From IMG/VR virus record IMGVR_UViG_3300032163_000032, positions 1 to 42,916 of that record: 42,916 bases of DNA. The stretch is one strand, 5' to 3'. The stretch's first letter is position 1. Each line of letters starts with the position of its first letter. The position numbers were made by a program, and so were the translations under genes. Source of the stretch: a virus. Shown in pieces: positions 875 to 42,916 of this stretch. The notes beneath the pieces were generated by a model, which did no database searches, had not been told where the DNA came from, and was given only the letters and a program-made list of their open reading frames with translations.

Positions 875-879
875 TATTT

Positions 880-2676: not shown

Positions 2677-2687
2677 TGTTATACTCC

Positions 2688-18627: not shown

Positions 18628-18891
18628 TTATTCTTCAAATTCGACATCGGGAACTTCAAATATTTCCGGATGTTTAGATGATTTCAATGCAGATAGAATC
18701 TCAAACACCACGGAACGTTGACCTTCCCGAAACGCCGTCTGGTCTGGATCGCCAGGAACATAGGACTGACGATCATAATAAATACTGCGCATATCCTTAA
18801 GCACGGCCATACCCGGTTCACTTGAAAACGTTTCAAAATAATACAGAACCCGTTTATATTCTTTATTGTCCGGTTGTTCCTTGCGCCGCAC
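18628..18891 (-). CDS. Bbp19-like small phage protein
   Basis: 87 aa from the GTG at 18891, chosen because GGGAGG lies 5 bases upstream; the longer frame from 18975 would overlap the portal by 113 bp. The sequence YYFETFSSEPGMAVLKDMRS followed by DPDQTAFREGQRSVVFEIL matches the conserved core of the Bbp19 family, commonly encoded beside the portal. Function is unknown; a head-completion or assembly role is usually assumed from context. The start overlaps the end of the portal gene by 29 bp. Confidence 0.75.
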   Translation of the reverse strand: MRRKEQPDNKEYKRVLYYFETFSSEPGMAVLKDMRSIYYDRQSYVPGDPDQTAFREGQRSVVFEILSALKSSKHPEIFEVPDVEFEE

Positions 18892-20536
18892 CAATACCTC
18901 CCGATGATCCCATGTCCTGCGGACCCGTAACAGATTGACCCATTCCACCCGGAATTGCATTGGGAGGAATGACACCAGCCTTTAATGCCGGGGTTAATTT
19001 CCTAATCACTTCCGCAACCATCATGGAATCCTGTTTGCTCTGTCCGGCCTGTCCCTCTGCCGCGCGTTGTTTGCGAATCTCGGCAACGGTGTCAATGTCT
19101 TTAAGTAACTTTTTGGGAACACCGCGAACGTCCGTAAGCCAATGAACCATTGCATCAAGGTCTATCCAATCAAAAACCTCTGGTGACATTTGGGCAACCA
19201 TACCAAGAATCTGTAAAACATCGGTAAGGGCATTAACTTCCTGGCTACGTTGCGCCTTGGCCATTGTACCTTCGTATTCAATATCTATCTCATTCTCATG
19301 CCCAAAGAGTTGATCCGGCATCGGCTTAAAAAGACCGGCCCGAAACATAATTCCAAATTGCCTTCTAATTAACGGATTTAAAAATTCCCGTTCTTCCCTT
19401 CCAAGGGTGGGTCCCAATATCCTCTGCATGAGCTCATAACGAATATAGGACTCAGCAGCCGTCATTTGCGGACCTTCCTGTAATTGAAGTTGGTCACTAT
19501 AGAAAACCTGCCGAATAGATTTTTTGAGATCGTCAGCCTTAACCTGTGTCGTATTAAAATCAACCCTGAATTGCATGGCCTCAAAAACAGCATTGGGGCG
19601 GACAGTGGTTATTCCACCTGGTTGCATCTTGGGTACGCCTATCACACCGTTATCACTCACCTTGATTGGAGGATTAATCATCTTGGCTAATGCTTTAAGT
19701 TCAAGCTCAACTGCCTTATTTAATGTCTTAACATCGGGCATGGCCACAAAACCGGGACCCCGACCATTCTCTTCGCCGGAGGTCTTGCCCCATCTTGGAA
19801 CAAGGTACGGAAATTCACGATATATCCTGGGGCGTTCGGGCATGGTCTTACCCTCAAGCCCAACGTAATACCCCTGATACAACGTCTCGTTTAATGGAGT
19901 GACCATGTGCAGAAAATTAAAATATTGCTCCGGGTTTTTATCCATAGATTTAATAATTTTCTCACCCGCGTTTTTACCCCACCGTTGAAATGCTGCCCTG
20001 GCCGTAATTTGTATTTTGCGAATCAGTGTATCAACAACTTCATCAGTATTTTCTTCAATACAATAATCACCTATTGAAATAGTATGAAACCTAAAACCAT
20101 TAAACGGAACCGTCTCTTCCGAATACATGGCCCCCATTCCAAAACCACCAAGGTCAAGATCGAGTTCGTGTGCCTCTGAATCAAAATTACTTTGATGAAA
20201 ACCTAAGAATATCTTTCTTGCGCAATCTTCAAGCCACTCCATAACCTCCGTATCTTGCATTAATTCATCATTTCTTATTCTCAGGGAAAACCATTGAAGG
20301 TTTGCCGGAGTGATAGCCTGTTTCATTGATGCCGCCAAAAGTTCATTTGCATGAATAGCGGTCGAATCGTATAATTTCGTGGTCTGCTTCGTACCCGTAG
20401 TATTCTTGGTTAAAATGTTTGATCGTTTAGGAATAATGTAATCCGCTACGTCTTGCCAAAGTGACCGCCAGTTGGCATCCCTATTGTAAAGCCGTTCATA
20501 CTTCTTGATTATTGCCTGTGCATCCCATTTCGCCAT
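18863..20536 (-). CDS. Portal (head-tail connector) protein
   Basis: 557 aa, T7 gp8-like family (Head-tail_con). Start at 20536 (MAKWDAQ) because AGAAGGA lies 7-10 bases upstream; a TTG at 20557 is less likely. Landmarks: WQDVADYIIPKRS near 30, YDSTAIHANELLAASMKQ near 60, a DLDLGGFGMGAMY segment near 125, and the QMTAAESYIR helix near 355. The C-terminus is a Gly/Gln-rich tail. It forms the dodecameric ring at the packaging vertex through which DNA enters and leaves. Confidence 0.95.
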   Translation of the reverse strand: MAKWDAQAIIKKYERLYNRDANWRSLWQDVADYIIPKRSNILTKNTTGTKQTTKLYDSTAIHANELLAASMKQAITPANLQWFSLRIRNDELMQDTEVMEWLEDCARKIFLGFHQSNFDSEAHELDLDLGGFGMGAMYSEETVPFNGFRFHTISIGDYCIEENTDEVVDTLIRKIQITARAAFQRWGKNAGEKIIKSMDKNPEQYFNFLHMVTPLNETLYQGYYVGLEGKTMPERPRIYREFPYLVPRWGKTSGEENGRGPGFVAMPDVKTLNKAVELELKALAKMINPPIKVSDNGVIGVPKMQPGGITTVRPNAVFEAMQFRVDFNTTQVKADDLKKSIRQVFYSDQLQLQEGPQMTAAESYIRYELMQRILGPTLGREEREFLNPLIRRQFGIMFRAGLFKPMPDQLFGHENEIDIEYEGTMAKAQRSQEVNALTDVLQILGMVAQMSPEVFDWIDLDAMVHWLTDVRGVPKKLLKDIDTVAEIRKQRAAEGQAGQSKQDSMMVAEVIRKLTPALKAGVIPPNAIPGGMGQSVTGPQDMGSSGGIGAAQGTTGQ

Positions 20537-20582
20537 TGGATAATTCCTTCTATACAATCGTGCAATTTAAATGCAAAAAAAC

Positions 20583-20864
20583 TTATCCACCCAGAAGGGT
20601 TTTCTTTACCCCGGACTGATTGGCCCCTAAATACTCTGTCATCGGAGCAGCCCCCGCACCGTATCTCGCTTTCTTTTTCCGGTCTTCTTCTAGTTTAGCC
20701 TCTTCGTCAAGTTGCTGTCTCTTTTTAGCGGCCTCTAATGCCTGTGCGGTTCTCTGTCTTTTGGCTTCTTCGTTACCAGCCTTCTTGCCCTGTGCAACCG
20801 AAGTGGTTGTCCCAACCAAACTAACAGCAGCACTCGCTAACGTTCCAATTAATACTTCTGACAT
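20583..20864 (-). CDS. Small protein with N-terminal hydrophobic helix and charged coiled coil
   Basis: 93 aa. The start at 20864 has AAAGGAG 6 bases upstream; the longer frame to 21035 runs across the leader and into the neighbouring gene. Residues 3-22 are hydrophobic (VLIGTLASAAVSLVGTTTS). The middle is rich in K, E, Q and A, and the end is VKKTLLGG. Proteins of this form are common just before the portal in podoviruses, but I do not recognise a function. A structured leader fills the 115 bp upstream. Confidence 0.65.
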   Translation of the reverse strand: MSEVLIGTLASAAVSLVGTTTSVAQGKKAGNEEAKRQRTAQALEAAKKRQQLDEEAKLEEDRKKKARYGAGAAPMTEYLGANQSGVKKTLLGG

Positions 20865-20879
20865 AACTTTCTCCTTTAA

Positions 20880-20977
20880 GTGGGGTCGGACAGGCACGTT
20901 TATCCTTTCAAATAAATTCGGACATATCCGTTGTTGCCATCTGTTTTCAACCGTATGGTTTCCACCACCGACTCCAC
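20880..20977. promoter_or_regulatory. Structured leader closed by a 10-bp inverted repeat
   Basis: GTGGGGTCGG (20880-20889) and CCGACTCCAC (20968-20977) pair at 9 of 10 positions on the minus strand (one A-C mismatch) and 10 of 10 on the plus strand counting one G-U. Inside are a TGGT-GGAA-ACCA hairpin with a GNRA loop and CGGA-TATG-TCCG. The element starts 3 bp from the stop of the upstream gene and ends next to the Shine-Dalgarno of the next. Confidence 0.5.
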
Positions 20978-20979
20978 AC

Positions 20980-21300
20980 CTATTTAATATTAAGATTCCT
21001 TTTAAGCCAATTCTTCGTTGGCTTAACACCACCAATTAGAATTTCTTTTTCTTTCGGCTTAAATTCTTCCTTATCCCTCAATACGACATATTCGTTTTCA
21101 CATCGGGCATCCATAATTATCGAAATACCGTCAATCTCGCAAAGTAAGTATGCCACTCTTTTATCACGACTCTCTATAAATTCGTTCTGTAATCCAACCT
21201 GAATATTTCCGATATGGATAGATGTGATCCTACTATACGGATCATTCGACCTTTCGTGTGATACGAGTGTATTTAAAAAACCCAATGTTTGACCGTTCAT
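20980..21300 (-). CDS. Hypothetical protein in the terminase-portal interval
   Basis: 106 aa, soluble. It contains a beta-rich middle (SIHIGNIQVGLQNEFI, then VAYLLCEIDGISIIMDAR) and a basic C-terminus ending LKRNLNIK. I recognise no family. The ATG shares one base with the stop of the DUF6496 gene (TAATG), so it is probably translationally coupled to it. Context: between large terminase and portal, a place often occupied by small accessory proteins. Confidence 0.6.
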   Translation of the reverse strand: MNGQTLGFLNTLVSHERSNDPYSRITSIHIGNIQVGLQNEFIESRDKRVAYLLCEIDGISIIMDARCENEYVVLRDKEEFKPKEKEILIGGVKPTKNWLKRNLNIK

Positions 21301-21485
21301 TACTTTTTACCCATCAAGGAATGTCTGGATTTTTTCTTGCTCATTCCAGCCTCAGACATTGCAATAGCAATCGCCTGCTTACGGTCTGTAACAACGGGAC
21401 CACCACTGGAACCCGAATGTAACATTCCATGTTTAAATTTGTGCATCTCTTGTTTAACTCCGGCTTGTCCCTTCTTTACTGGCAT
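21300..21485 (-). CDS. DUF6496-like small basic protein
   Basis: 61 aa, strongly basic. Starting at 21485 (MPVKKGQAG) it shares one base with the terL stop. The core HKFKHGMLHSGSSGGPVV-DRKQAIAIAMSEAG-SKKK is the conserved motif of DUF6496. Members are found widely in phages and bacteria; no activity is known to me. The basic composition suggests binding of nucleic acid. RBS GAGAGGG lies 7 bases upstream. Confidence 0.8.
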   Translation of the reverse strand: MPVKKGQAGVKQEMHKFKHGMLHSGSSGGPVVTDRKQAIAIAMSEAGMSKKKSRHSLMGKK

Positions 21486-22900
21486 TACATTACCCTCTCT
21501 TCGTCGAATGGATTCCATTCTGTCAGTTTTGGTTCCGGTGCATAAAGTCTCGGTCTGTCTTCCACGAATGGATCATACACCGTATCGTATCTTTCTGTTC
21601 TCGGCCTGTCTTTATTCCCTGTCGGATTAAGAATAAGAGCCAACCCATGAGATAGCGCGTCTCCGGGGTGAGAATAGATATCCTTTACTGGCCTATCACC
21701 GATAACACCCGATGGGCTCTTTGGATAATGCCATCCACCACCGAGGGTCTCAATCATAATTTCATCGTCAGAAGAAATAAGAATCTTGGGATTGGTCCCA
21801 TCTACGGTAGCAATAAAAACTTGCTTTAGGGCCTCCCTTCTTCCCATTTCCCATTTCATTTCACCATCTTCAAAATAAGTTTTAAATTCACTTTCAATGA
21901 TACCGGCAGCACTCTTGGATGAATCCGATTGATCTGGATCACGCAAATGAAGATCGCCTATATCTCTCCATTCTGTAATTTTAAAATACTTCGTAGCCAT
22001 TAATGGTTTCACGTAAGCATCAACCAACTGTTTCATTCCAATGTTTTCGCCGCGAAGCGTTTGTAGTACCTGAATTTGTCCAAGTGAGCTTATCTGCACA
22101 AAAACACAGGTTGGGTTTTGCCCGCCATCCCAAAAACGAAAACCCAAAACATCCGGCATTGGTTTTAATGGATTTCTGGAAACATGACGTAGCTCAGAAA
22201 ATTCCGGCACTACATCTTCCCCTATATGAATACTTGCAAATTCCCCCCTAACATATCTGGCTAAAAATTCTGGATTATCTTTATATGCCTCTAAGGTTCT
22301 ATCTCTCTGACCCTCCGGTAAATGTGGATTCTCACCGTATGGAATCCGTATCACTTCCATATCTGGTTTGGGGTTCAATATAAATTTTCTATGTGTCCAA
22401 TGTTTTTTACTGGCGGGGTTCATGGTTACAAGGATTTTTGAAATAATTCCTTTCTTCCTGGCCCCACGGCTATAACAAATATCAAAAACCTCTTCCCGTA
22501 TTCCCACAGAACCAACATCAAAATATGGGGCGGGCTCTTCAATCCAAACAATCGCATATTGCGAGCCCTGTAATCTATTAATATCGGCTAAGTCATCCAC
22601 CCCAAATAAATCAAACTCAGCACCCGGAATCCTCATTAAATGTCCATCATCATGGAAGGTAGTAACCTCTCCCGCAACTTCCATAATTGAAGGAATGGTA
22701 TTTGTTTTTATACTCGTAAAACGATCACGAATAATAGCACCGCGTATGGGGGAAGTAACCCCCTGCAAATAATGAAAAATGGCCGCAACCGCACCGAAGG
22801 ACTTTCCCTCCCCCTGTGGTCCGATCAAGACTATAACGGGTTTGTCGGATAGGGCCATTCTCTGTTGACTTGGGCTTAGAATTATTCGTCTCTCTGACAT
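21485..22900 (-). CDS. Terminase large subunit
   Basis: 471 aa. ATPase domain: Walker A GPQGEGKS at 27-34, Walker B YAIVWIEE at 115-122, coupling motif near LVTMNPAS (157-164). Nuclease domain: RNase H-like, first acid D258 in FRFWDGG, further acids near WRDIGD (311-316) and in the SHPGDALSHG segment near the C-terminus. It powers DNA packaging and cuts the concatemer. The ATG has no strong Shine-Dalgarno and lies 10 bp beyond a long inverted-repeat leader. The nearest small-terminase candidate is at 24790-25197, with the lysis genes between, unlike the usual adjacency. Confidence 0.95.
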   Translation of the reverse strand: MSERRIILSPSQQRMALSDKPVIVLIGPQGEGKSFGAVAAIFHYLQGVTSPIRGAIIRDRFTSIKTNTIPSIMEVAGEVTTFHDDGHLMRIPGAEFDLFGVDDLADINRLQGSQYAIVWIEEPAPYFDVGSVGIREEVFDICYSRGARKKGIISKILVTMNPASKKHWTHRKFILNPKPDMEVIRIPYGENPHLPEGQRDRTLEAYKDNPEFLARYVRGEFASIHIGEDVVPEFSELRHVSRNPLKPMPDVLGFRFWDGGQNPTCVFVQISSLGQIQVLQTLRGENIGMKQLVDAYVKPLMATKYFKITEWRDIGDLHLRDPDQSDSSKSAAGIIESEFKTYFEDGEMKWEMGRREALKQVFIATVDGTNPKILISSDDEIMIETLGGGWHYPKSPSGVIGDRPVKDIYSHPGDALSHGLALILNPTGNKDRPRTERYDTVYDPFVEDRPRLYAPEPKLTEWNPFDEERVM

Positions 22901-26421: not shown

Positions 26422-26476
26422 CAATGATATCAATGGGTTAGCTTGTGAGTTAGATAAATAGTTAGACAATGATATC
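26422..26476. repeat. Pair of CAATGATATC direct repeats
   Basis: Two identical 10-mers start 45 bp apart (26422 and 26467). The first lies in CCAATGATATCAATGG, which is palindromic at 14 of 16 positions. Such spacing and symmetry suit binding sites of a dimeric protein. Confidence 0.55.
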
Positions 26477-28967: not shown

Positions 28968-29146
28968 AGGGCTAATTCCTTTCCATGGCATAATCCCGCT
29001 TCGATCAACGCTGTAGCTATACGGCCATAATGACCCTGTAATACCCATACTGCCCCATCGTTTATTAACTCTTGAAAAAGGATAACGATCTCCTCTTGGT
29101 TTAACTCCCCATCTTCATACAGCATAATTTTAGTTACGTTTATCAT
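28964..29146 (-). CDS. DUF7417-like small phage protein
   Basis: 60 aa. The pattern MLYEDGELNQEEIVILFQEL followed by GAVWVLQGHYGRIA and ALIEAGLC is that of the DUF7417 family, found in many phages ('YEDGEL...LFQ.L.....W.LQG.YGR.A..LI..G'). Function unknown. The N-terminus overlaps the upstream gene by 17 bp and the stop overlaps the downstream ATG by 4 bp. Confidence 0.8.
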   Translation of the reverse strand: MINVTKIMLYEDGELNQEEIVILFQELINDGAVWVLQGHYGRIATALIEAGLCHGKELAL

Positions 29147-34394: not shown

Positions 34395-34657
34395 GTAAAA
34401 AGAAAACCCCTTACGATTACCTGATGGATGATTTTGTTGAATACGTCAACAAGGTACGAAATGCAGAAAACCATGAGATGTGGTTATATTCAAAAAAAGA
34501 TTTGGATAGGGCGGTTGGATGGGACCTAAGGGCCCTATGGGAAAGGGTTTCCTCTGCGGAGGTTTGTGGATTCGAAACAATTCTAAAAGCAACGGAAGCT
34601 GGCATCCATGTATATTTCAGGAAACAGTCTCCGCCAAGGCCATGGAGGGTATACTAA
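34391..34657 (+). CDS. 88-aa hypothetical protein
   Basis: Begins MSKKKTPYDYLMDDFVEYVN and continues AENHEMWLYSKKDLDRAVGW, then a C-terminal beta part ending in HVYFRKQSPPRPWRVY. Soluble, mixed alpha-beta. Start overlaps the upstream stop by 4 bp (ATGA); its own stop shares one base with the next ATG (TAATG). No family recognised; the tight coupling with the nuclease gene suggests they work in one pathway. Confidence 0.6.
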   Translation: MSKKKTPYDYLMDDFVEYVNKVRNAENHEMWLYSKKDLDRAVGWDLRALWERVSSAEVCGFETILKATEAGIHVYFRKQSPPRPWRVY

Positions 34658-35541
34658 TGATCTTAACTAATAAATTTAATTTACCACCCGTAATTATCGG
34701 AGCCATTGGCCCATCATGGCCCCCGGCTATTGGTAGGGTAGCGGTAACGGCCCTGATCGACAGCCCATTAATCCGGTATCTCAAAATAAAATATTGGGAT
34801 GAATTAACCGAAGATGCCAGTGATCGGTTATGGGCATTGCTCGGCACGGCTGCTCATACTGTTGTTCAGCGCGGTAGGCCCCACGATGCGAAGGCCGAGC
34901 AATACATGAAGATGACCGTTAATGGGATGGATGTTACCGGTAGATCGGACTTGATAATCGGAAATGAGCTAATTGATCTCAAGGTGACATCAGTCTATTC
35001 ATTTTTACTCGGAGAAAAAGAAACATGGGTGAAGCAACTAAATGTTTATAATTACCTGGCTTATTTTTACGGGATGAAGGTTGAATGTGCCAAAATATAC
35101 GGTATACTCCGAGATTGGTCCGAGATGAAACAATACGGAAATCCCGATTATCCACTCATACCGTTCTTTGAACAGGAAATCAAACTATGGTCGTTGGATC
35201 ATACACAAAAATATATTGAGGCTATGGTTTCCTTGCATAAGGCGGCGGATTTATGGTTGACACAGGAAAATGTGAATGACCATGGATTACCATCTATGTT
35301 ATATTGCACCGCCGCTGACCGTTGGCTGCGCCCTACTACATACGCCGTAATGAAAGGTAAGAACGTGAAGGCGACCAGGGTCCTCGATACATTCGATGAA
35401 GCGAATCAATGGATGATTGATAACGGAAAAACCGAGAAGGAATTTTATATAGCCGAGCGTCCCGGCCAGGCGGTACGATGCGAGAGGTATTGTGTTTGTA
35501 AACCAGTATGTCCAATGATGCAAAGGGAGGTAAAAGAATGA
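34657..35541 (+). CDS. PD-(D/E)XK nuclease, Cas4/RecB-like, with C-terminal cysteine cluster
   Basis: 294 aa from 34657 (GGAGGG upstream). RecB-type motifs: GTAAHTVVQRG with His67, VTGRSDLI with Asp98, IDLK with Asp107 and Lys109, then VKQLNVYNYLAYFYGM (the QxxxY-like motif). Near the end CERYCVCKPVC gives four cysteines that could bind an iron-sulfur cluster or zinc, as in Cas4 and AddB-like nucleases. It probably trims DNA ends in phage replication or recombination. No Erf/RecT-type annealing partner is recognised nearby. Confidence 0.85.
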   Translation: MILTNKFNLPPVIIGAIGPSWPPAIGRVAVTALIDSPLIRYLKIKYWDELTEDASDRLWALLGTAAHTVVQRGRPHDAKAEQYMKMTVNGMDVTGRSDLIIGNELIDLKVTSVYSFLLGEKETWVKQLNVYNYLAYFYGMKVECAKIYGILRDWSEMKQYGNPDYPLIPFFEQEIKLWSLDHTQKYIEAMVSLHKAADLWLTQENVNDHGLPSMLYCTAADRWLRPTTYAVMKGKNVKATRVLDTFDEANQWMIDNGKTEKEFYIAERPGQAVRCERYCVCKPVCPMMQREVKE

Positions 35542-35714
35542 TACCAGATGAACCCTATACGATTAGGATTACTAATCCGAACGGAGATAGAATCGGCCTT
35601 ACCCTTCCCTGGGATGCAGATATCGAAGGATGGATCGAGAAATTAAGGGTAATTTTAACCTGGGCTACATTTGATCCAGAAACAATAAGAGAATATTTGA
35701 AGGAGGAAGAATGA
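35538..35714 (+). CDS. 58-aa hypothetical protein (paralogue of the 47-aa gene at 37754)
   Basis: GGGAGG lies 7 bases before the ATG, which overlaps the nuclease stop by 4 bp. Sequence: MIPDEPYTIRITNPNGDRIG, then LTLPWDADIEGWIEKLRVIL and an acidic helix. The core LTL...D...W-I-E-K-L-R-V-I-L-T-W-x-x-F matches the small protein at 37754-37897 (LTL...D...LLEHLRIIFTA-DF). A small beta-alpha protein of unknown function. Confidence 0.6.
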   Translation: MIPDEPYTIRITNPNGDRIGLTLPWDADIEGWIEKLRVILTWATFDPETIREYLKEEE

Positions 35715-36202
35715 AAATTAAACGATCACAATTATTTCGGATTCAGGAAGTTATTCAGGGGTTGGGTAAATCGAACACATTTAAATTCGGTTATGCCTGT
35801 GCCAAGAATCTGCGTCTCGTAAAGCGCGAAATCGAAGATATGCAGAAGGCCCTTGAGCCCGACGAACAGGTCGGGGAGTTTGAGAAGGAACGCATACTTC
35901 TGTGTCAAAAATTCTCCAAAAAAGAGGGTGAGAACCCCATTATTACCGGCAATAGGTTTGAGATTGACGAAACAAAAATGGATGAATTTAATGCCGAGAT
36001 CAGGGAATTAAGGGGGAAATATAAGGAAACCCTAATGCTTAACGATCAAAAGATGGAAGCCTATAATAAAGCATTAAGGGAAGAAATTGATATCAATTTC
36101 CATCTCGTCAAACTTGAGGACGTACCCCCGGAAATGAAACCGGATGAATTAGAAGTCATACTTGATTGGATTATTCCAAGCGAGACACAATTACCATCAT
36201 AG
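35711..36202 (+). CDS. Coiled-coil protein, 163 aa
   Basis: GAAGGAGG precedes the ATG, which overlaps the upstream stop by 4 bp. N-terminus MKIKRSQLFRIQEVIQGLGK, then a long helix from about residue 30 to 130 (KREIEDMQKALEPDEQVGEF; EIRELRGKYKETLMLNDQKM), and an acidic C-terminus ending DWIIPSETQLPS. It resembles helical phage proteins of the DUF1617 type in layout, but this is weak. No catalytic motif visible. Confidence 0.6.
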   Translation: MKIKRSQLFRIQEVIQGLGKSNTFKFGYACAKNLRLVKREIEDMQKALEPDEQVGEFEKERILLCQKFSKKEGENPIITGNRFEIDETKMDEFNAEIRELRGKYKETLMLNDQKMEAYNKALREEIDINFHLVKLEDVPPEMKPDELEVILDWIIPSETQLPS

Positions 36203-36208
36203 GGGTGA

Positions 36209-36237
36209 TTGACTTTTTTATACAAATATGTTATATT
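36209..36237 (+). promoter_or_regulatory. Promoter overlapping the excisionase-like start (integrase promoter)
   Basis: TTGACT (36209-36214) and TATATT (36232-36237) are exactly 17 bp apart and each matches five of six consensus bases. The ATG of the HTH/Xis-like gene (36228) lies in the spacer. RNA from this promoter would begin near 36244, lack the Xis start codon, and still carry the integrase RBS and start (36355). Confidence 0.65.
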
Positions 36238-36575
36238 TAAATCTGAATGAAGCTGCACAGTATATCAAAAAACCCCGGTCATGGCTTTATAAACGTGCCT
36301 CCGAGTTTGGTGTAAAATGGGGTCGTTGTTGGCTGTTTACCCAGGAGTGGTTTGATGTCCGTATGGAAATACAAAGATCATTGGTATTGTCAGGTAATGC
36401 ACCTGGGGAAATACTACCGGGGCGGCAAGGGATACGACAAAAAAGAAGAAGCCATGGAAGCCCAAGCCCAGATCAAATACAAGTTAAAAATAACAAGGAC
36501 ATTATCGAAAACCCACGTTACTTCTCAAGACAACTCGTTCGAGCCACTATGGAAAAGGTATCTAATTCATTGTGA
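36228..36575 (+). CDS. Excisionase-like HTH protein (MerR/HTH_17 type)
   Basis: The first 45 residues, MLYLNLNEAAQYIKKPRSWL then YKRASEFGVKWGRCWLFTQE and W-F-D-V, are a typical excisionase/HTH_17 winged helix. The frame stays open to 115 aa, but residues about 45-115 overlap the integrase gene by 221 bp in another frame and have low-complexity, out-of-frame-like composition, so the functional part is probably the N-terminal domain. No Shine-Dalgarno at the ATG. Expected role: directing excision by bending attachment-site DNA. Confidence 0.7.
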   Translation: MLYLNLNEAAQYIKKPRSWLYKRASEFGVKWGRCWLFTQEWFDVRMEIQRSLVLSGNAPGEILPGRQGIRQKRRSHGSPSPDQIQVKNNKDIIENPRYFSRQLVRATMEKVSNSL

Positions 36576-37359
36576 AGCCTATAATTCTAAGGCATGGTTT
36601 GATGCAAAAAGATACATCGGTTCCAAATACTTTCGGAAATGGTTTAACGAAGATATTACCCAGATTATGCCTGCTGATATTGAAGCGCATTTGGTGGAAC
36701 GTAAGGGTTTGTCTGCTCGGTCTGCAAATCTGGATTTTGAAATCCTCCGTAATTTTTATAGGTGGTGTGTGGAAATGGGGTTCTTGGATAAATCACCAAT
36801 GTTATATCTCAGAAAATTTCCTCTTGCTAAAAAAATTCGAGTTATCCCGACAAGAGAAGATGTTGAAACTCTTATCTCTACTAACAAAGGAACAGATAGG
36901 TTGCTTATACTCTTACTTGTTTATACGATGGGACGAATCTCGGAGATCAGGGGGTTACAATGGAAAGACGTAGACCTGAACAAAAAAGTGCTTTATCTGA
37001 GAACCAGAAAGACAGGGGACGGCAGCGAGTCGATAAGGGAAATTCCGATCAATGGAACACTATTGCAATACTTCCTATCCAATCCGGTAAACCAGACCGA
37101 AGGGTTTGTCTTGTCTTCCAATGCAAACGGGGGTCCGTACAAAGACTTACGAAAGAAGTTAAAAAAATGCTTGGAAATGGCCGGTATCCAGACATTCGGT
37201 TTCCATGCATTTAGACATTACGGAATCAGCCGATTGATTGAAGCTGGCGTGGACCCGGCCACTGTTCGCGATATCGCCGGTCACGCAACCCTGGAAATGA
37301 CGAGTCATTATTCTCATTCATCTACGGAAAACAAACGAAGGGCCATGGAGATGATGTGA
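36355..37359 (+). CDS. int: Tyrosine recombinase integrase
   Basis: 334 aa; AGGAG lies 7 bases before the ATG at 36355, inside the Xis-like gene. Domains: N-terminal arm-binding AP2-like strand region (VWKYKDHWYCQVMHLGKYY, residues 3-45), SAM-like core-binding domain (about 60-150), catalytic domain (165-334). Catalytic residues seen: Arg194 (TMGRISEIRG), Lys219 (RKTGD), His284-x-x-Arg287 (HAFRH), His310 (AGHATLEMTS) and the nucleophile Tyr319 (HYSH). It should recombine the attP at 37904-37945 with a host tRNA-Pro gene. Confidence 0.96.
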   Translation: MSVWKYKDHWYCQVMHLGKYYRGGKGYDKKEEAMEAQAQIKYKLKITRTLSKTHVTSQDNSFEPLWKRYLIHCEAYNSKAWFDAKRYIGSKYFRKWFNEDITQIMPADIEAHLVERKGLSARSANLDFEILRNFYRWCVEMGFLDKSPMLYLRKFPLAKKIRVIPTREDVETLISTNKGTDRLLILLLVYTMGRISEIRGLQWKDVDLNKKVLYLRTRKTGDGSESIREIPINGTLLQYFLSNPVNQTEGFVLSSNANGGPYKDLRKKLKKCLEMAGIQTFGFHAFRHYGISRLIEAGVDPATVRDIAGHATLEMTSHYSHSSTENKRRAMEMM

Positions 37360-37577
37360 ACGGAGAAGGAAGTTCCAAAGAAGAATACATGGCAGACCTA
37401 GAACAGAGAATTATTGATACGGAACTTGAATGTGTGAATCTTAGGCGCATGGTCGAGCGTATCGGTAAGGAAAAACGAACTTGTGCGGTCCCGGAAAAGA
37501 CCGGATGGGTAATGTATCTACTGGTATTACTGGTGATGATTGATATGGGGTTGGCCCTGATTGCACTTATAAAATGA
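37356..37577 (+). CDS. 73-aa coiled-coil plus C-terminal membrane anchor
   Basis: GTG start at 37356 overlaps the integrase stop by 4 bp and has GGAG 5 bases upstream; ATG at 37389 is the alternative. N-terminal charged helix (MADLEQRIIDTELECVNLRR), then a C-terminal hydrophobic helix (WVMYLLVLLVMIDMGLALIALIK). Tail-anchored layout as in small holin-like or superinfection proteins. Unknown function. Confidence 0.6.
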   Translation: MNGEGSSKEEYMADLEQRIIDTELECVNLRRMVERIGKEKRTCAVPEKTGWVMYLLVLLVMIDMGLALIALIK

Positions 37578-37587
37578 GGCAATAAAT

Positions 37588-37710
37588 ATGTCAGATAAAT
37601 ATGCCGAAGCAATGATTGAATTAAATGACTTTCTTAATCGAATTATGGAAGAAGGTATATTAGACAAAACAGATATTATCAATGAGGTTGAGAACGTTTG
37701 GCATCAGTAA
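37588..37710 (+). CDS. 40-aa acidic helical protein
   Basis: MSDKYAEAMIELNDFLNRIM then EEGILDKTDIINEVENVWHQ. ATGAGG lies 9-10 bases before the ATG. Wholly helical and acidic. No family recognised. Placed between integrase and attP, hence moved to the prophage end opposite the late genes on integration. Confidence 0.5.
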   Translation: MSDKYAEAMIELNDFLNRIMEEGILDKTDIINEVENVWHQ

Positions 37711-37722
37711 TTAGTTAGATAA
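37711..37722. repeat. Candidate integrase arm site, TTAGTTAGATAA (P side)
   Basis: The same 12-mer occurs at 38031-38042 on the other side of the attP core. The inner TTAGATAA has a third copy at 38022-38029. Repeats flanking the core on both sides are what arm-type integrase sites look like. Confidence 0.5.
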
Positions 37723-37753
37723 TATTCGATAAAAGATCGGAGAATGGTGGAAA

Positions 37754-37897
37754 ATGACAGGTAAATATGATAATTTAGAACTTATGGTTCTGTTTGGTGG
37801 GTGTGAACTATTAACCCTTCATCCCAATGATTATAATAACCTAGATGCGTTACTTGAGCATCTTCGTATTATTTTTACGGCATGGGATTTTAAATAA
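37754..37897 (+). CDS. 47-aa protein, paralogue of the gene at 35538
   Basis: GGTGG lies 4 bases before the ATG. Sequence MTGKYDNLELMVLFGGCELL, then TLHPNDYNNLDALLEHLRII and FTAWDFK. The LTL...D...L-L-E-H-L-R-I-I-F-T-A pattern aligns with the 58-aa protein at 35538-35714 (LTL...D...WIEKLRVILTWA). It ends 6 bp before the tRNA-like attP core. Function unknown. Confidence 0.5.
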   Translation: MTGKYDNLELMVLFGGCELLTLHPNDYNNLDALLEHLRIIFTAWDFK

Positions 37898-37903
37898 AGT
37901 TGG

Positions 37904-37945
37904 TTCGGGACCAAGAGGTCGGGAGTTCAAATCTCCTCTCCCCGA
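37904..37945. other. attP: attP core: 3' half of tRNA-Pro(CGG)
   Basis: Reads as anticodon loop TTCGGGA (anticodon CGG), 3' anticodon stem CCAAG, variable AGGTC, T-stem GGGAG, T-loop TTCAAAT, T-stem CTCCT, acceptor strand CTCCCCG and discriminator A. This matches bacterial tRNA-Pro, whose 3' half in E. coli has the same layout. The 5' half is absent, so it is not a gene but the identity segment that restores the host tRNA after integration. TTGG before the loop completes part of the anticodon stem. Confidence 0.87.
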
Positions 37946-37955
37946 TTATAACTCA

Positions 37956-37985
37956 TTGAATTTAGTGATTTTTTTTAATTTTAAT
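37956..37985 (+). promoter_or_regulatory. Weak possible promoter beyond attP
   Basis: TTGAAT (37956-37961), 18-bp spacer, TTTAAT (37980-37985). It could drive the structured RNA and the small-gene cassette at 38149-39030 in the prophage. Boxes match four and five of six bases, in an AT-rich stretch, so chance is possible. Confidence 0.3.
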
Positions 37986-38021
37986 TTATCTGAATGCGTA
38001 AAATGGTGTATCAAACGTATA

Positions 38022-38042
38022 TTAGATAATTTAGTTAGATAA
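38022..38042. repeat. Candidate integrase arm sites, tandem TTAGATAA (P' side)
   Basis: TTAGATAA at 38022-38029 and again at 38035-38042, the second as TTAGTTAGATAA identical to 37711-37722. The 13-bp tandem spacing and the location 77 bp beyond the attP core suit paired arm-type sites. Confidence 0.5.
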
Positions 38043-38046
38043 AATA

Positions 38047-38133
38047 GGCCAATGGTGGCGAGTAGGAACAACTTGTCAGGGTAGTAGAGTAGTATACAAA
38101 GCGGAGCAGGGTGGGGAATCCTGCCCATTGGCC
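38047..38133 (+). ncRNA. Structured RNA or leader closed by a perfect 9-bp stem
   Basis: GGCCAATGG (38047-38055) pairs with CCATTGGCC (38125-38133). Immediately inside the 3' arm is a GCAGG (38106-38110)/CCTGC (38120-38124) hairpin, stacked on the main stem. The enclosed part has several stop codons in a row (GGGTAGTAGAGTAG), so it is not coding. A Shine-Dalgarno (AAGGAGG) follows 4 bp after the stem. No known RNA family is recognised. Confidence 0.55.
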
Positions 38134-38148
38134 GTCAAGGAGGATGAG

Positions 38149-38358
38149 ATGGATGAGAAAGAAAGGGATGAGAAGGAGTTTGAAAAATTCATGAGAGAAA
38201 AGTATCCCCTTTTCTATACTTATCCATATAATCATTATTATGAAATTATGGAACATATCACATTAATGAAAGAATCTTTTCTTGCCTCCCGTAGATTGCT
38301 GAGGGAACAATTAGGGAAATGGCATGATGTAGAAGAATTTTATAAGGAGGAGGAATGA
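38149..38358 (+). CDS. 69-aa charged protein after the structured leader
   Basis: Start at 38149 (AAGGAGG 4-5 bases upstream); a TTG at 38128 lies in the leader stem. Sequence MDEKERDEKEFEKFMREKYP, then LFYTYPYNHYYEIMEHITLM and a helix ending in FYKEEE. Very charged at both ends, with an aromatic centre. It overlaps the next gene by 4 bp. No family recognised. Confidence 0.65.
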   Translation: MDEKERDEKEFEKFMREKYPLFYTYPYNHYYEIMEHITLMKESFLASRRLLREQLGKWHDVEEFYKEEE

Positions 38359-38555
38359 GGGAGAAGGAGTTTAGCATTGGTGATTTAGTAGAGACTGGTG
38401 TTTATATCTTTGGTGAGAGGATACCAATGAGTAAGGGAAGAATAACCTCAATTCATTCCGGTTACTGCAAGGTAGATATTATGTCTCTTCATGGAGGAGC
38501 ACCCTGGATAGTTGATGAAAATATTTGGAGTCTAAAGAAGGTCGTAGAACACTGA
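38355..38555 (+). CDS. 66-aa small beta-barrel-like protein
   Basis: MREKEFSIGDLVETGVYIFG, then ERIPMSKGRITSIHSGYCKV and DIMSLHGGAPWIVDENIW. The pattern F-S-I-G-D-L-V...G-R-I-T-S-I...C-K-V-D is that of a small SH3-like barrel as in many nucleic-acid or protein-binding domains. The ATG overlaps the preceding stop by 4 bp; GGAGGAGG lies upstream. Function unknown. Confidence 0.65.
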   Translation: MREKEFSIGDLVETGVYIFGERIPMSKGRITSIHSGYCKVDIMSLHGGAPWIVDENIWSLKKVVEH

Positions 38556-38573
38556 GGGAGAAGGAGGGGAAGG

Positions 38574-38948
38574 ATGGAGGAGATAAAAGAGATTAAGAAG
38601 AGATTAGCCTTTGAATGCCACACCGTTGAATACCATATAGAGGCAATTGGTGATACCCCTATCATAAATTGGGGACAAGCACTGCAAGATATTAACCATC
38701 TTCTCTCCCACCTCAAACAGTGGGAGCAGTTGATTGAGGAATATAAAACTTCTCTTTCTGCAGCAAGGGTGAAAGAGTTGGAGGAAAAGCTTAATGGAAT
38801 AAATGGGGTATTAGGCGAACATGCAATAGAAATGACTATTATTAAGCTAAGGGCAAGAATCAAGGAGTTGGAGGAGGCCCGAACATTAGAGGCACAAAGA
38901 GGAGATTATTGGATTGAAAAATATAAGAAGTTGGAAGGGGGAGATTGA
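38574..38948 (+). CDS. 124-aa coiled-coil protein
   Basis: MEEIKEIKKRLAFECHTVEY, a middle segment INWGQALQDINHLLSHLKQW and two later coiled-coil stretches (AARVKELEEKLNGINGVLGE; KLRARIKELEEARTLEAQRG). Purine-rich coding strand unlike the structural genes, in common with the two genes before it, which suggests that the cassette has a different origin. AAGGAGGGG lies just upstream. Confidence 0.65.
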   Translation: MEEIKEIKKRLAFECHTVEYHIEAIGDTPIINWGQALQDINHLLSHLKQWEQLIEEYKTSLSAARVKELEEKLNGINGVLGEHAIEMTIIKLRARIKELEEARTLEAQRGDYWIEKYKKLEGGD

Positions 38949-39030
38949 GACGATCATAAAGCAATATCCCCTGGGAATGGACTTTAGAATTATGGAACTG
39001 GAACTTAATAAACTGGTGGGGAAGGATTGA
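38914..39030 (+). CDS. Possible 38-aa protein ending the rightward operon
   Basis: A frame overlapping the end of the previous gene reads, in its last part, IETIIKQYPLGMDFRIMELE then LNKLVGKD and stop at 39030. The amphipathic sequence looks real, but the start is unclear: TTG at 38914 (GAGGAG 9 bases upstream) or ATG at 38977. It ends 1 bp before the stop of the convergent gene. Confidence 0.4.
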   Translation: MKNIRSWKGEIETIIKQYPLGMDFRIMELELNKLVGKD

Positions 39031-39031
39031 T

Positions 39032-39370
39032 TTATGCGGTACTCACCGGAAACTTCTTTCTATAGGTTCTTTTTATGGTCCCATTAATATCATATTTTGC
39101 CTTATTTTTGTTTTTAGGTTTTATCTTTCGACTCGCCACTATATAATCTCCGATAGAATCCCCAATTACGGTTGATACCATAATCGCAATATTCCAATCC
39201 GAAAGTTTTCCAATGATAAAAAGAATGGACCATCCGGCGATCCCGGTAGCCAGGGAATACTTAACGGCTCTCTGCGGCTTGCGCGAGATAATGCTGACGT
39301 TGACCCAATTAGCCAGGACGGAATGTATGATTTCCAGGAAGAAACATAGGATACAATAGAGGATGGTCAT
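39032..39370 (-). CDS. Three-helix membrane protein
   Basis: 112 aa. Hydrophobic segments near residues 3-22 (ILYCILCFFLEIIHSVLANW), 41-57 (ATGIAGWSILFIIGKLS) and 60-78 (IAIMVSTVIGDSIGDYIVAS), then a very basic tail (KIKPKNKNKAKYD). It resembles small integral proteins of the DUF5698/DUF2179 kind in layout only. It is the last gene of the operon starting at 42688 and is convergent with the rightward cassette, with a gap of 1 bp and no clear terminator. Confidence 0.65.
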   Translation of the reverse strand: MTILYCILCFFLEIIHSVLANWVNVSIISRKPQRAVKYSLATGIAGWSILFIIGKLSDWNIAIMVSTVIGDSIGDYIVASRKIKPKNKNKAKYDINGTIKRTYRKKFPVSTA

Positions 39371-39376
39371 GGTTTT

Positions 39377-39586
39377 TCATGTTCTAAGGTATCTGTGGCA
39401 CTCACACGTACACGCTTCATACCCATTCTCATGGTGGTCTTTCATGCAATTTTCGCAGAACGATACCGTTTTTTTACATTCTGGTTGCATACACGAATGA
39501 AGATCATCCCATATAGCGTATTCATTTCCATCTTTTGATGGTTTAAAATTATCACATGGTTGATGTCCTACGGTAAACCTTTTCAT
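39377..39586 (-). CDS. 69-aa cysteine/histidine-rich protein
   Basis: MKRFTVGHQPCDNFKPSKDG, then SCMQPECKKTVSFCENCMKD and HHENGYEACTCECHRYLRT. Eight cysteines and four histidines suggest two zinc sites. Its ATG overlaps the stop of the preceding 53-aa gene by 4 bases (ATGA shifted), so it is likely coupled. No family recognised. Confidence 0.6.
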   Translation of the reverse strand: MKRFTVGHQPCDNFKPSKDGNEYAIWDDLHSCMQPECKKTVSFCENCMKDHHENGYEACTCECHRYLRT

Positions 39587-39744
39587 GCGTGTCCGATCTT
39601 TGATTCTTGCGCTGCCACGTGAAGAATTAATAGGTTAATTGTTTTGGTCAGGGTTTGTATGGCCTGAGCCAGTTCAATGAAAGACTCGGCCATATTAATT
39701 AATAATTTATCCCGTTCTTCAGGTGATAGATTTTGGGTAGTCAT
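39583..39744 (-). CDS. 53-aa helical protein
   Basis: MTTQNLSPEERDKLLINMAE, then SFIELAQAIQTLTKTINLLI and a short end LHVAAQESKIGHA. Entirely amphipathic helix, probably an oligomer. The ATG shares one base with the preceding stop (TAATG), and the stop overlaps the next ATG. No family recognised. Confidence 0.55.
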   Translation of the reverse strand: MTTQNLSPEERDKLLINMAESFIELAQAIQTLTKTINLLILHVAAQESKIGHA

Positions 39745-39938
39745 TACCAATTCCATTCGTCAAGTCGATCCGATAACGGTGTATCTTCCCGATCCGTGAT
39801 CTCAGTTACCCGAAGGATGGGCCATTGATTTCCGGTAAATGTAAGGGTTGCTATCGAAAAACCCAAGAAACTCCAATAGGCTTCCCCCTCTTTTGGACAT
39901 CTAACCTCCCCCGTTTCTTCCACCAACCATTTTCTCAT
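39744..39938 (-). CDS. 64-aa hypothetical protein
   Basis: GGGGAG lies 8 bases before the ATG. MRKWLVEETGEVRCPKEGEA, then YWSFLGFSIATLTFTGNQWP and VTEITDREDTPLSDRLDEWN. A small beta-sheet with an acidic C-terminus. The opening 'RKWLVEETGEVRCPKEGEAYW' recalls short phage proteins that carry one strand-turn repeat, but no function is known to me. Confidence 0.6.
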   Translation of the reverse strand: MRKWLVEETGEVRCPKEGEAYWSFLGFSIATLTFTGNQWPILRVTEITDREDTPLSDRLDEWNW

Positions 39939-39950
39939 TATTTTTCTCCC

Positions 39951-40424
39951 CTAAAATGGTATGTCGTCTTTTTTGCTTTCCCTGTATAGAATCAATCCCA
40001 GGATCGCGTAAACCGCCATGTCTCTAAAAACATCCTCTACCGATTCATCCTTAACTTCATATTGTTCTTTTTTCACAAAGGTTTTTAATCGAGAATACTT
40101 ATCGGATAGGCGGATAGCAACCCCCTTCCATGCCGGAATCCCCATATCCTCCGTTTCCTTGAGATTGGATAACGGATCATTCCCGGCGTAATCCTGATTC
40201 TTCTTTGAATGAAGCTCTTTGAGTTCATCGAGAATCTTGTAAAAGTCCGGGTGTCCATGGAATTTGGGTTTAGTTATTTCTTTATCCTTCATAAATTCGG
40301 GGACCAATGATAAATACGGGGGATTAACGTTTTTCGATTCTTCTTTTTCCTCAACCTCATATCTACATTCAAAACAGGATGTTTCAAGACAATTAAAATC
40401 GGCTGGTGCTATACAGGTTTTCAT
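39951..40424 (-). CDS. DUF1599 / nucleotide-modification-associated (MazG-like) protein
   Basis: 157 aa. An N-terminal cysteine cluster (C3, C12, C17, C20) is followed from about residue 60 by FYKILDELKELHSKKNQDYA, NDPLSNLKETEDMGIPAWKG, IRLSDKYSRLKTFVKKEQ and DESVEDVFRDMAVYAILGLI. This is the all-helical DUF1599 pattern, related to MazG-type nucleotide pyrophosphatases (E/D-rich helices binding Mg-NTP). It may modify or hydrolyse nucleotides with the neighbouring deoxyribosyltransferase-like protein. It overlaps the preceding gene by 4 bp. Confidence 0.78.
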   Translation of the reverse strand: MKTCIAPADFNCLETSCFECRYEVEEKEESKNVNPPYLSLVPEFMKDKEITKPKFHGHPDFYKILDELKELHSKKNQDYAGNDPLSNLKETEDMGIPAWKGVAIRLSDKYSRLKTFVKKEQYEVKDESVEDVFRDMAVYAILGLILYRESKKDDIPF

Positions 40425-40687
40425 TTCACATCTCCATTTTGTTGAATTTTTTCGTCCTCGTAAGGAGCAACAACCTGTCTGTAAAATTCTTTTCCAACCG
40501 AATCAAGGATGCCCAATAAGATTGCAAAGGCCACAAAGTGATTGGTATTCATATCCATAAATAATTTATAAATACAATATGTAATTACCCCTGGCCTATC
40601 TTGCGTTGGGGTACACATAACCTTATCAAATAAATCAGATAACGGTTCTTCAACTACTTCACGATATTCTTGCTTGATGTACGGCAT
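40421..40687 (-). CDS. DUF6899-like small protein
   Basis: 88 aa. MPYIKQEYREVVEEPLSDLF, then DRPGVITYCIYKLFMDM, and FYRQVVAPYEDEKIQQNGDV at the end, which is the signature of the DUF6899 family in phages ('MPYI.QE.R', 'DR.GVL.Y.I..L', 'EFYRRVVAPYED.KI..NGDV'). Often beside DUF1599 and nucleotide genes, as here. Function unknown. It overlaps the upstream gene by 29 bp. Confidence 0.82.
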   Translation of the reverse strand: MPYIKQEYREVVEEPLSDLFDKVMCTPTQDRPGVITYCIYKLFMDMNTNHFVAFAILLGILDSVGKEFYRQVVAPYEDEKIQQNGDVK

Positions 40688-41144
40688 CTTTAAGCTCCTT
40701 CATGGATTGATAAATTAGAATATCATTCTTTATTGCAATTTTAATTTCTGCCTTTGTCCCTCCCGAATATATCCAACCAGGTAATAACAATACCGCGTCA
40801 CAGACGAGAAGCCAGTCTATACTGTATCTTTTAATCATCTCCTCGGAGATTTCTTCCCCTTCCCGTAGTTGGAGAAAAAAATTATAGTCAATACCGGGAA
40901 CGAATGGGGACAACCCCATTAAAAGTAATTCCTTCCCTGCTTCGATCATATTCCTAACGTTTAGAAGATAGTCTATTGCCAAATGTTTAGTATTTAGTCC
41001 CTTAGGAGAAAGTGGTCCGGCTACATAGACACGGATAATTTGTTTCTTGGGTTGTTGAGTCCCAGGTCTTTGACACTCTTCGTAATCTACATCATCACAC
41101 CCTATGTCATTGTCTTTGCAATATTGACGAAGATCGTAACTCAT
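40659..41144 (-). CDS. DUF4406 / nucleoside 2-deoxyribosyltransferase-like protein
   Basis: 161 aa. After a 35-residue N-terminal extension with C-x-x-x-D-x-x-C spacing, it reads IIRVYVAGPLSPKGLNTKHL, V-R-N-M-I-E-A-G-K-E-L, GLSPFVPGIDYNFF and DWLLVCDAVLLLPGWIYSGG-TKAEI: the Rossmann-like nucleoside deoxyribosyltransferase fold of the DUF4406 group. It may salvage or exchange nucleobases. The start overlaps the metallophosphoesterase stop by 4 bp. Confidence 0.8.
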   Translation of the reverse strand: MSYDLRQYCKDNDIGCDDVDYEECQRPGTQQPKKQIIRVYVAGPLSPKGLNTKHLAIDYLLNVRNMIEAGKELLLMGLSPFVPGIDYNFFLQLREGEEISEEMIKRYSIDWLLVCDAVLLLPGWIYSGGTKAEIKIAIKNDILIYQSMKELKDAVHQARIS

Positions 41145-41869
41145 TTATACCTCCTCCCAAGTGCCCAGAATTTATTATGCACAACATAGACCTGGGTTTC
41201 GGAGAACTCTTCGGTTTTATCGTCAACATAGGCGTAGTTAAATCCATTCACCCATCGGTTAGGTTTGTTTTTCATGTAGGATGGATTTAGGGTACATAGG
41301 CATCCACAGGATGCGCCCGTAAAAAATTGTTCAACATCAACCGGGGAAATATCCGTGTACCTCTGGATATCATGGCTGTGGCCATAAAGAACCGTCTTGT
41401 GAACAGCGTGTACGGTCTGGAAGGCATGGTATTTAGTCGTGTAAAGTCCATGTAAGTAACAGAGGCGTTCATTAATATGGTATGCTTGGTTCTGTGGAAC
41501 GATCTGAATACCTGCGGGAAGGTTCTTTTCAAGCTCCCAATATCCTCGTCCATTTGGATTAATCTGGCTCGCTTTTCTGAGCCAATCTTCGTGATTACCC
41601 ACTATATAAATTTGTTTAGCCTTGGGTACGGCCTTCGATAACGGTTTGAGGAGTCTCTGATGAAGTTGTTCGTAATTTTCCATTATCGTTCCACCATCTA
41701 AGGCCCTACTTTGATCCGCGATCCATAGACTAACCGCCGTCCAGTCGTGCATATCGCCGCCCAAGATTACGGTATCCGGTTTGAAGTCCTGGGCAAATTC
41801 AAAGACAGGATCGAGATTAATATTGAATGGGATATGGGTGTCAAATAAAGCGAGAATTTTCTTTATCAT
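41141..41869 (-). CDS. Calcineurin-like metallophosphoesterase
   Basis: 242 aa. All the metal motifs are present: DTH (Asp10, His12), GGDMHD (Asp39), GNHED (91-95), a lone His in YLHGLY (near 138), and GHSHD. The two-metal phosphoesterase may act on nucleotides or DNA ends; phage homologues include DNA-repair and nucleotide phosphatases. It starts with a 4-bp overlap with a 22-aa ORF that has the better Shine-Dalgarno, so translation is probably coupled to it. Confidence 0.88.
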   Translation of the reverse strand: MIKKILALFDTHIPFNINLDPVFEFAQDFKPDTVILGGDMHDWTAVSLWIADQSRALDGGTIMENYEQLHQRLLKPLSKAVPKAKQIYIVGNHEDWLRKASQINPNGRGYWELEKNLPAGIQIVPQNQAYHINERLCYLHGLYTTKYHAFQTVHAVHKTVLYGHSHDIQRYTDISPVDVEQFFTGASCGCLCTLNPSYMKNKPNRWVNGFNYAYVDDKTEEFSETQVYVVHNKFWALGRRYK

Positions 41870-41934
41870 ATTTTTAAAAGCGGGCCAGGCAAGTTAGTTT
41901 TTCTATCCCCTGTTTCCCTGTCCCCCCTGGCCAT
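41866..41934 (-). CDS. 22-aa leader ORF coupled to the metallophosphoesterase gene
   Basis: CGGAGA lies 5 bases before the ATG, the best RBS in the interval. The peptide is MARGDRETGDRKTNLPGPLL then KI. Its stop overlaps the next ATG (ATGA). It lacks any fold and is probably a leader that delivers ribosomes. An inverted repeat (GGCCAGG 41883-41889, CCTGGCC 41926-41932) spans most of it. Confidence 0.5.
   Translation of the reverse strand: MARGDRETGDRKTNLPGPLLKI
41883..41932. repeat. 7-bp inverted repeat across the leader ORF
   Basis: GGCCAGG and CCTGGCC, 36 bp apart, perfect. In leftward RNA the upstream arm is at the leader start codon, so pairing could hide it, and translation of the leader would open the stem near the metallophosphoesterase start. 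Confidence 0.5.
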
Positions 41935-41979
41935 TTTTTTCTCCGGGTTTGTTATCATGGGGTCCCGTTTGGGGTTGTC

Positions 41980-42180
41980 TTATTTGAATCTTCTCCGTCC
42001 ATGTCTCCATACGACTCGGTATCCGCATTGACTTAGAAAATCCACACAGCCGAGTTTTCTGATTCCCAATGACCCGCTATCAATAAACAGAACATCATCG
42101 TCCGGTACTGTGCCAATTTTGTTTAATTCAAATAAACACTTGGATTTAATTCTATCGGTTTCTTCCTTGGATAAATTCAT
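41980..42180 (-). CDS. 66-aa hypothetical protein
   Basis: MNLSKEETDRIKSKCLFELN, then KIGTVPDDDVLFIDSGSLGI and RKLGCVDFLSQCGYRVVWRH with a basic tail GRRRFK. Helix then alternating beta-alpha; soluble. The ATG shares one base with the preceding stop (TAATG). No family recognised. Confidence 0.6.
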   Translation of the reverse strand: MNLSKEETDRIKSKCLFELNKIGTVPDDDVLFIDSGSLGIRKLGCVDFLSQCGYRVVWRHGRRRFK

Positions 42181-42281
42181 TATTGGGCCTCCATCATCAT
42201 CTTTAAAAGCCCTCTTGCATCTTCAATGGTGTTTACCCCTACATACCTGACACTCGATACCATGTCTCCGAATTTAAACAT
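42180..42281 (-). CDS. 33-aa small protein
   Basis: MFKFGDMVSSVRYVGVNTIE then DARGLLKMMMEAQ. GGGGG lies 11 bases before the ATG. It opens with an SH3-like strand (FGDMVSSVRYVG) and closes with a helix. The stop overlaps the next ATG by one base. Short but in a tight operon position. Confidence 0.5.
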   Translation of the reverse strand: MFKFGDMVSSVRYVGVNTIEDARGLLKMMMEAQ

Positions 42282-42295
42282 TGTTCGATTACCCC

Positions 42296-42688
42296 CTACA
42301 TTTTAATTCCCCCCTTAAAGTACGGTAAAACCAATCTGGCAACCGCACGGGCCTCTTCTTCCGTAATAATTCGGGAACTTATGATGTCGTCACCCCTTGC
42401 AAAAGCCTGTTCATAAATATTATCGTTTTCCCTATAAATGGTAATAATGGCTTGCTCCCCCCTAAAGATAACTATTCCAATGGTGCATACAGAGGGAAAA
42501 TACCCGATAACTAATTGAAGTTGACTACCATTTTTTGTGATATGCCTTTCTAATATATAGTCTCCGTTTTTGTCGGATACGGTCCCCAGAGCTATTCCCT
42601 TAATTTCCATAAATGGATTATCCTGGGCAAATACCAAACCCATGGTTACAAAAAGAACTACCGCCGCAATAACTACTAAATGTTTCAT
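42296..42688 (-). CDS. Secreted protein, first gene of the 42.7-39.0 kb operon
   Basis: 130 aa from the ATG at 42688 (AAAGGA 6 bases upstream). The signal peptide MKHLVVIAAVVLFVTMGLVF ends AQ before D-N-P-F-M-E-I, with no lipobox, so it should be released to the periplasm. The mature part is a beta-rich fold (GIALGTVSDKNGDYILERHI; QLVIGYFPSVCTIGIVIFRG) and a helical end. No family recognised. A periplasmic product made from its own promoter could act in superinfection exclusion or as a lysogenic conversion factor, which is inference. Confidence 0.7.
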   Translation of the reverse strand: MKHLVVIAAVVLFVTMGLVFAQDNPFMEIKGIALGTVSDKNGDYILERHITKNGSQLQLVIGYFPSVCTIGIVIFRGEQAIITIYRENDNIYEQAFARGDDIISSRIITEEEARAVARLVLPYFKGGIKM

Positions 42689-42709
42689 GTGATTTCCTTT
42701 CTTGTTTGA

Positions 42710-42738
42710 ATTATACCTGATCGGATAAATAATTTCAC
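42710..42738 (-). promoter_or_regulatory. Leftward sigma-70 promoter
   Basis: On the minus strand GTGAAA (42733-42738) and a perfect TATAAT (42710-42715) are 17 bp apart, with start near 42703 and the ATG at 42688. It should drive the operon down to 39032 and is active with host polymerase alone, so possibly also in the prophage. Confidence 0.75.
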
Positions 42739-42745
42739 TACTTTT

Positions 42746-42916
42746 ATTCAATCGGGTATATAAAAATTAAAAGACGAGTTATTTTACAGAGATATGACCA
42801 ATAAATAGCGAGGCGAGGTAAGCACCGATAGCCGTCACAATACCACCAGCCGCCCCCCATCTGGCAGCTTTCATTTCCAGCTTATCGGTTTTATCGTCGA
42901 GACTTTTGCAGACCTT
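42746..42916. repeat. Right copy of the 171-bp terminal redundancy
   Basis: Repeats bases 1-171 with C at 42872 in place of T at 127. It holds the 3' part of the membrane-protein gene at 34-258. With this copy removed the circular genome is 42745 bp, and the late operon's last gene lies next to the promoter at 42710-42738. Confidence 0.95.

Follow-up and report, generated by a model that had tools for sequence, protein, structure and literature searches.

A half gene of tRNA-Pro(CGG) as the putative attP core of an uncultured temperate phage

Many tyrosine integrases use the 3' end of tRNA genes as their target, a principle long established, and rhizobiophage 16-3 has been described as using tRNA-Pro(CGG). 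The same gene is the target of prophage 3LM21 of Sinorhizobium sp. LM21, which integrates with a 57-nt repeat and leaves the tRNA gene reconstituted (PMC5537653). In Islander, anticodon-centred tDNA sites are among the common classes, with 2083 islands, while T-loop and junction sites are pooled in another class; an integrated element is classically recognised by a tDNA at attL together with a displaced fragment, one at each end (PMC4383910). Here we describe a locus of this kind in the viral record IMGVR_UViG_3300032163_000032, the whole of which (42,916 nt) is referred to below as the window.

A tRNA half gene downstream of the integrase

The window encodes at 36355-37359, on the + strand, a tyrosine integrase of 334 aa (PF00589, E 1.4e-24; PHROG integrase, E 4.8e-54) with a complete catalytic set of six residues (R194, K219, H284, R287, H310 and Y319) and an N-terminus resembling an arm-binding region. 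None of 50,697 phage records holds a close relative of it; the best matches listed are less than 30% identical, and the integrase of rhizobiophage 16-3 is not among them. On the same strand, starting 540 bp downstream of the integrase end (37359), positions 37900-37945 correspond to the 3' part, the last 60%, of a tRNA-Pro(CGG) gene (tRNA positions 28-73) and read TTGG TTCGGGA CCAAG AGGTC GGGAG TTCAAAT CTCCT CTCCCCG A, with the anticodon CGG at 37906-37908. The segment is identical to complete tRNA-Pro(CGG) genes at 46 of 46 bp, from TTGG, the 5' side of the anticodon stem, to the discriminator base A73, and is bounded by a G at 37899, where the host gene has C27, and by TTA on the 3' side, where the host has CCA. 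The 5' half of the tRNA is missing: ARAGORN, run on both the window and the local stretch, calls no tRNA there, and the Rfam tRNA model scores 19.1 bits, below the cutoff of 29, as expected of a half gene, the match being carried by the 3' part. The stretch 37904-37945 occurs once in the window and is absent from shuffled windows, even with three mismatches allowed. An earlier note on this DNA had presented these 42 bp as the att core, a 3' half of tRNA-Pro(CGG) with no 5' half, 545 bp after the integrase. The letters are as it described them and the distance holds from 37904, but the length needs correction, as the real identity covers 46 bp and starts 4 bp earlier. We conclude that 37900-37945 is almost certainly the attP core of a temperate short-tailed phage, recombined by the integrase with the tRNA-Pro(CGG) gene of the host.

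The morphological part of this description is suggested by a head-to-tail connector of the P22/T7 type (PF12236) and a terminase large subunit (PF04466), both within 18863-22900, and by weakly matching T7-like tail fibre N-termini elsewhere in the window. ARAGORN also calls a tRNA-Thr(TGT) at 18235-18323, which we weighed as a further att-related gene but reject as a probable false positive; it is 89 nt long, has a mismatched acceptor stem, lies inside an ORF on the other strand (17801-18616) and is not called in the related contig G001 described below.

Bacterial counterparts of the core were found by an exact scan for GTTCGGG...CCCCGACCA across ~85,000 species genomes. It matched five (G002-G006), all MAGs titled Deltaproteobacteria, Syntrophaceae or proteobacterium, which all carry a complete tRNA-Pro(CGG) with full identity and all belong to one order, represented by 17 genomes in our comparison. 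The complete tRNA-Pro(CGG) of one IMG/VR contig likewise shares 46/46 bp. With at most three mismatches the segment is present in 16 of 23 genomes of the class, and a compensated stem, TTGC/GCAA, is found in some others. Judged from the tRNA allele alone, this order of Deltaproteobacteria is the probable host order. An integrated copy of the window phage itself was not found in the collections searched. In the 17 genomes the integrases nearest to that of the window are only 32-34% identical, or 30-34% when the more distant ones at L011 and L027 are taken together, and have other tRNA genes nearby, tRNA-Pro(TGG) and tRNA-Arg(CCG), so this line of integrases may have moved from one tRNA target to another.

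Viral counterparts are few. Among 2.9 million viral contigs the core segment, even in degenerate form, is confined to G001 and one further contig, which holds an intact tRNA-Pro gene and a recombinase-like gene of another element. Neither the att region nor the core retrieved a related attP from named phages by blastn; the top matches reach 78-80%, and many of them are annotated phage tRNA-Pro genes. Searches of viral contigs with the integrase, both as a single sequence and as a two-sequence alignment, returned G001 (IMGVR_UViG_3300018018_000017, 39,947 bp) as the sole close relative, its integrase being 71% identical over the full length. With its integrase oriented onto the + strand, as for all G001 coordinates given here, the contig begins with a flank of ~37-39 bp, followed by a complete tRNA-Pro(CGG) at 40-116 and then by phage DNA; past the integrase comes a second copy, TTGG...CCCCGACCA (49 bp, 39765-39813), and 134 bp of flank. 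G001 is an integrated prophage, bounded by an intact tRNA-Pro(CGG) on one side and a displaced 3' copy on the other. The only close relative found thus sits at tRNA-Pro(CGG), with the integrase at one end, as the earlier note would have led one to expect, rather than at a different locus. Since neither flank of G001 (37 and 134 bp) could be matched convincingly to any locus compared, the exact attB of its own host was not found. The window core matches both att sites of G001 at 45 of 46 positions, the allele being AAGAAGTC in G001 and AAGAGGTC in the window.

Predicted strand exchange and the restored tRNA

The two strands of the anticodon stem, TTGG and CCAA, are inverted repeats separated by 7 nt (TTGG-TTCGGGA-CCAA, 37900-37914, + strand), and an inverted repeat with a 7-nt overlap is the shape expected of a tyrosine-recombinase core. 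As identity with the host also starts exactly at the anticodon stem (37900), the anticodon loop is the likeliest place for strand exchange, with the crossover predicted within its seven nucleotides, 37904-37910. The integrase would accordingly recombine the attP core with its exact match in the host tRNA-Pro(CGG), exchanging strands between the predicted core-type sites TTGG and CCAA; the 5' half of the host gene would be joined to the phage-borne 3' part, by which a working tRNA-Pro(CGG) would be remade, and the host's own 3' part would end up at the opposite prophage end, beside the integrase. With attB unchanged, strands might instead be exchanged at the T-loop or at the junction of the T-stem and the acceptor, and the Islander class pooling such sites, with 1836 islands, is nearly equal to the anticodon class (PMC4383910). 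We consider such a crossover unlikely, because the identity, followed upstream, ends in both the window and G001 right at the 5' side of the anticodon stem, as it should if this stem is a core-type site, and identity so far upstream is more than a T-loop crossover would require.

The earlier note made two further claims, that the exact integration site was predicted and that the host tRNA would be restored. The target gene was rightly named, G001 being integrated in it; identity alone does not place the crossover, since 46 bases are the same. Restoration is borne out as far as structure goes, as ARAGORN calls a tRNA-Pro(CGG) when the 5' flank of the host is joined in silico to the 3' flank of the window and none in attP alone, but the encoded CCA tail would be lost. 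CCA is encoded by every host gene compared, as well as at the attR of G001, and is lacking in the window core, so that the restored tRNA of a lysogen would need post-transcriptional addition of CCA by a CCA-adding enzyme. Nucleotidyltransferases of PF01743, a family that includes CCA-adding enzymes and also poly(A) polymerases, are present in 5 of 5 host-order genomes. It is conceivable, if rather doubtful, that integration swaps the CCA-encoding 3' end and makes lysogens dependent on the CCA-adding enzyme, and that the core may also rewrite the tRNA allele of the host; the alleles GAGGTC and GAAGTC, both seen in genomes of the host order, agree with the two phage cores, and AAGAAGTC is carried by two genomes of the order (G016, G017).

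The state of the window and the candidate accessory elements

The genomes of G001 and the window are collinear, with 64-84% nucleotide identity in aligned blocks, and circularly shifted relative to each other. To the right of the core, window positions 39969-42772 align to G001 709-3525, at the end with the intact tRNA; to the left, 34656-37577 and 37711-37754 align to G001 36762-39619, at the end with the integrase and the displaced half. Because the two sides of the core thus correspond to opposite ends of the G001 prophage, the window holds an unintegrated attP and represents a free form of the phage genome, either circular or packaged. A half tRNA gene after an integrase is also typical of attR, as in G001 itself, and the window might be read as a prophage fragment in which 37900-37945 is the displaced half and the DNA to its right is bacterial chromosome. 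This is very improbable: the alignment of 39969-42772 to the G001 end beside the intact tRNA keeps both order and orientation, the DNA right of the core encodes a phage protein of the metallophosphoesterase family, and the CCA found at the attR of G001 and in the host genes does not follow the window core. That the segment should be a decayed or captured tRNA fragment with no role in integration is hardly credible, for although such relics do occur in phages and genomes, this one shows complete identity over 46 bp, lies behind an integrase and in G001 occupies the position that marks true prophage ends.

Candidates for two further elements of the recombination system are found nearby. A small helix-turn-helix protein encoded at 36228-36575 (+ strand) is a candidate excisionase (RDF), on account of the match of its G001 counterpart to HTH_17 (PF12728, E 2.1e-7; only 0.013 for the window protein). 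Over 221 nt the 3' part of its gene is shared, in a different frame, with the beginning of the integrase gene. Changes between the window and G001 are spread flatly over the codon positions in the overlap (11/14/16), as against 25/13/51 just after it, and the overlapped parts of the two proteins are both 73% identical, so both frames look protein-coding; this dual-coding stretch of 73 codons contains the presumed arm-binding region of the integrase.

Candidate arm-type sites of the integrase are provided by repeats of the motif TTAGAYAA, all on the + strand and in the same orientation: direct repeats left of the core (TTAGACAAAA at 37660 and TTAGATAATA at 37715, together spanning 37660-37724) and a pair right of it (TTAGATAA at 38022 and TTAGATAAAA at 38035, 38022-38044). 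Four copies lie within 37601-38100, against 0.09 expected, and none of 5000 first-order shuffles reaches four. As the motif was chosen after viewing the window, G001 is the fairer test; there it occurs on both sides around the att sites (39580 and 39590, and 167), its left arm being in part simply homologous to that of the window. Far from att, a conserved pair, TTAGATAAATAGTTAGACAA, at 26450-26470 (28968-28988 in G001) resembles the candidate arm motif and is possibly a regulatory site. Among small ORFs near attP there are predicted hairpins (-25 to -34 kcal/mol) with GGCCAA...TTGGCC as the closing stem, at 38047-38133 in the window and at 37654-37718 and 39494-39568 in G001, with differing interiors.

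Comparison with known systems

The arrangement is well documented and ordinary, and phages that insert at the 3' part of tRNA-Pro(CGG) and rebuild the gene are already known. Prophage 3LM21 shares with the window phage the tRNA-Pro(CGG) target and the remaking of the gene, a likeness at the level of the att site; it is an alphaproteobacterial phage, whereas Deltaproteobacteria are the probable hosts here. The anticodon-centred islands of Islander, whose attP carries a 3' tDNA fragment that rebuilds the target, show no difference of principle from the crossover predicted for the window phage. A prophage-like element in PEUO01000134.1 and IMGVR_UViG_3300025868_000944 (L005, L002) likewise has a tyrosine-recombinase-like gene beside a tRNA-Pro(CGG) of the same allele, but its gene stands at the side of the intact tRNA and is convergent with it; with the window integrase, tblastn gave no match in L002 and L018 at E 1e-3, and a weak match (E 3e-9) in another search.

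The closest counterpart is G001, which has the tRNA-Pro(CGG) target, the integrase at the displaced-half end and candidate arm repeats at matching positions in common with the window phage, and the latter would be expected to behave as this relative does. Their cores differ in extent, that of G001 having 49 bp including CCA and that of the window 46 bp without it. From sequence alone, the integration site and probable host order of an uncultured temperate podovirus-like phage can thus be fixed, and, as G001 is integrated and not free, the two genomes make a matched pair of an unintegrated attP and an integrated relative.
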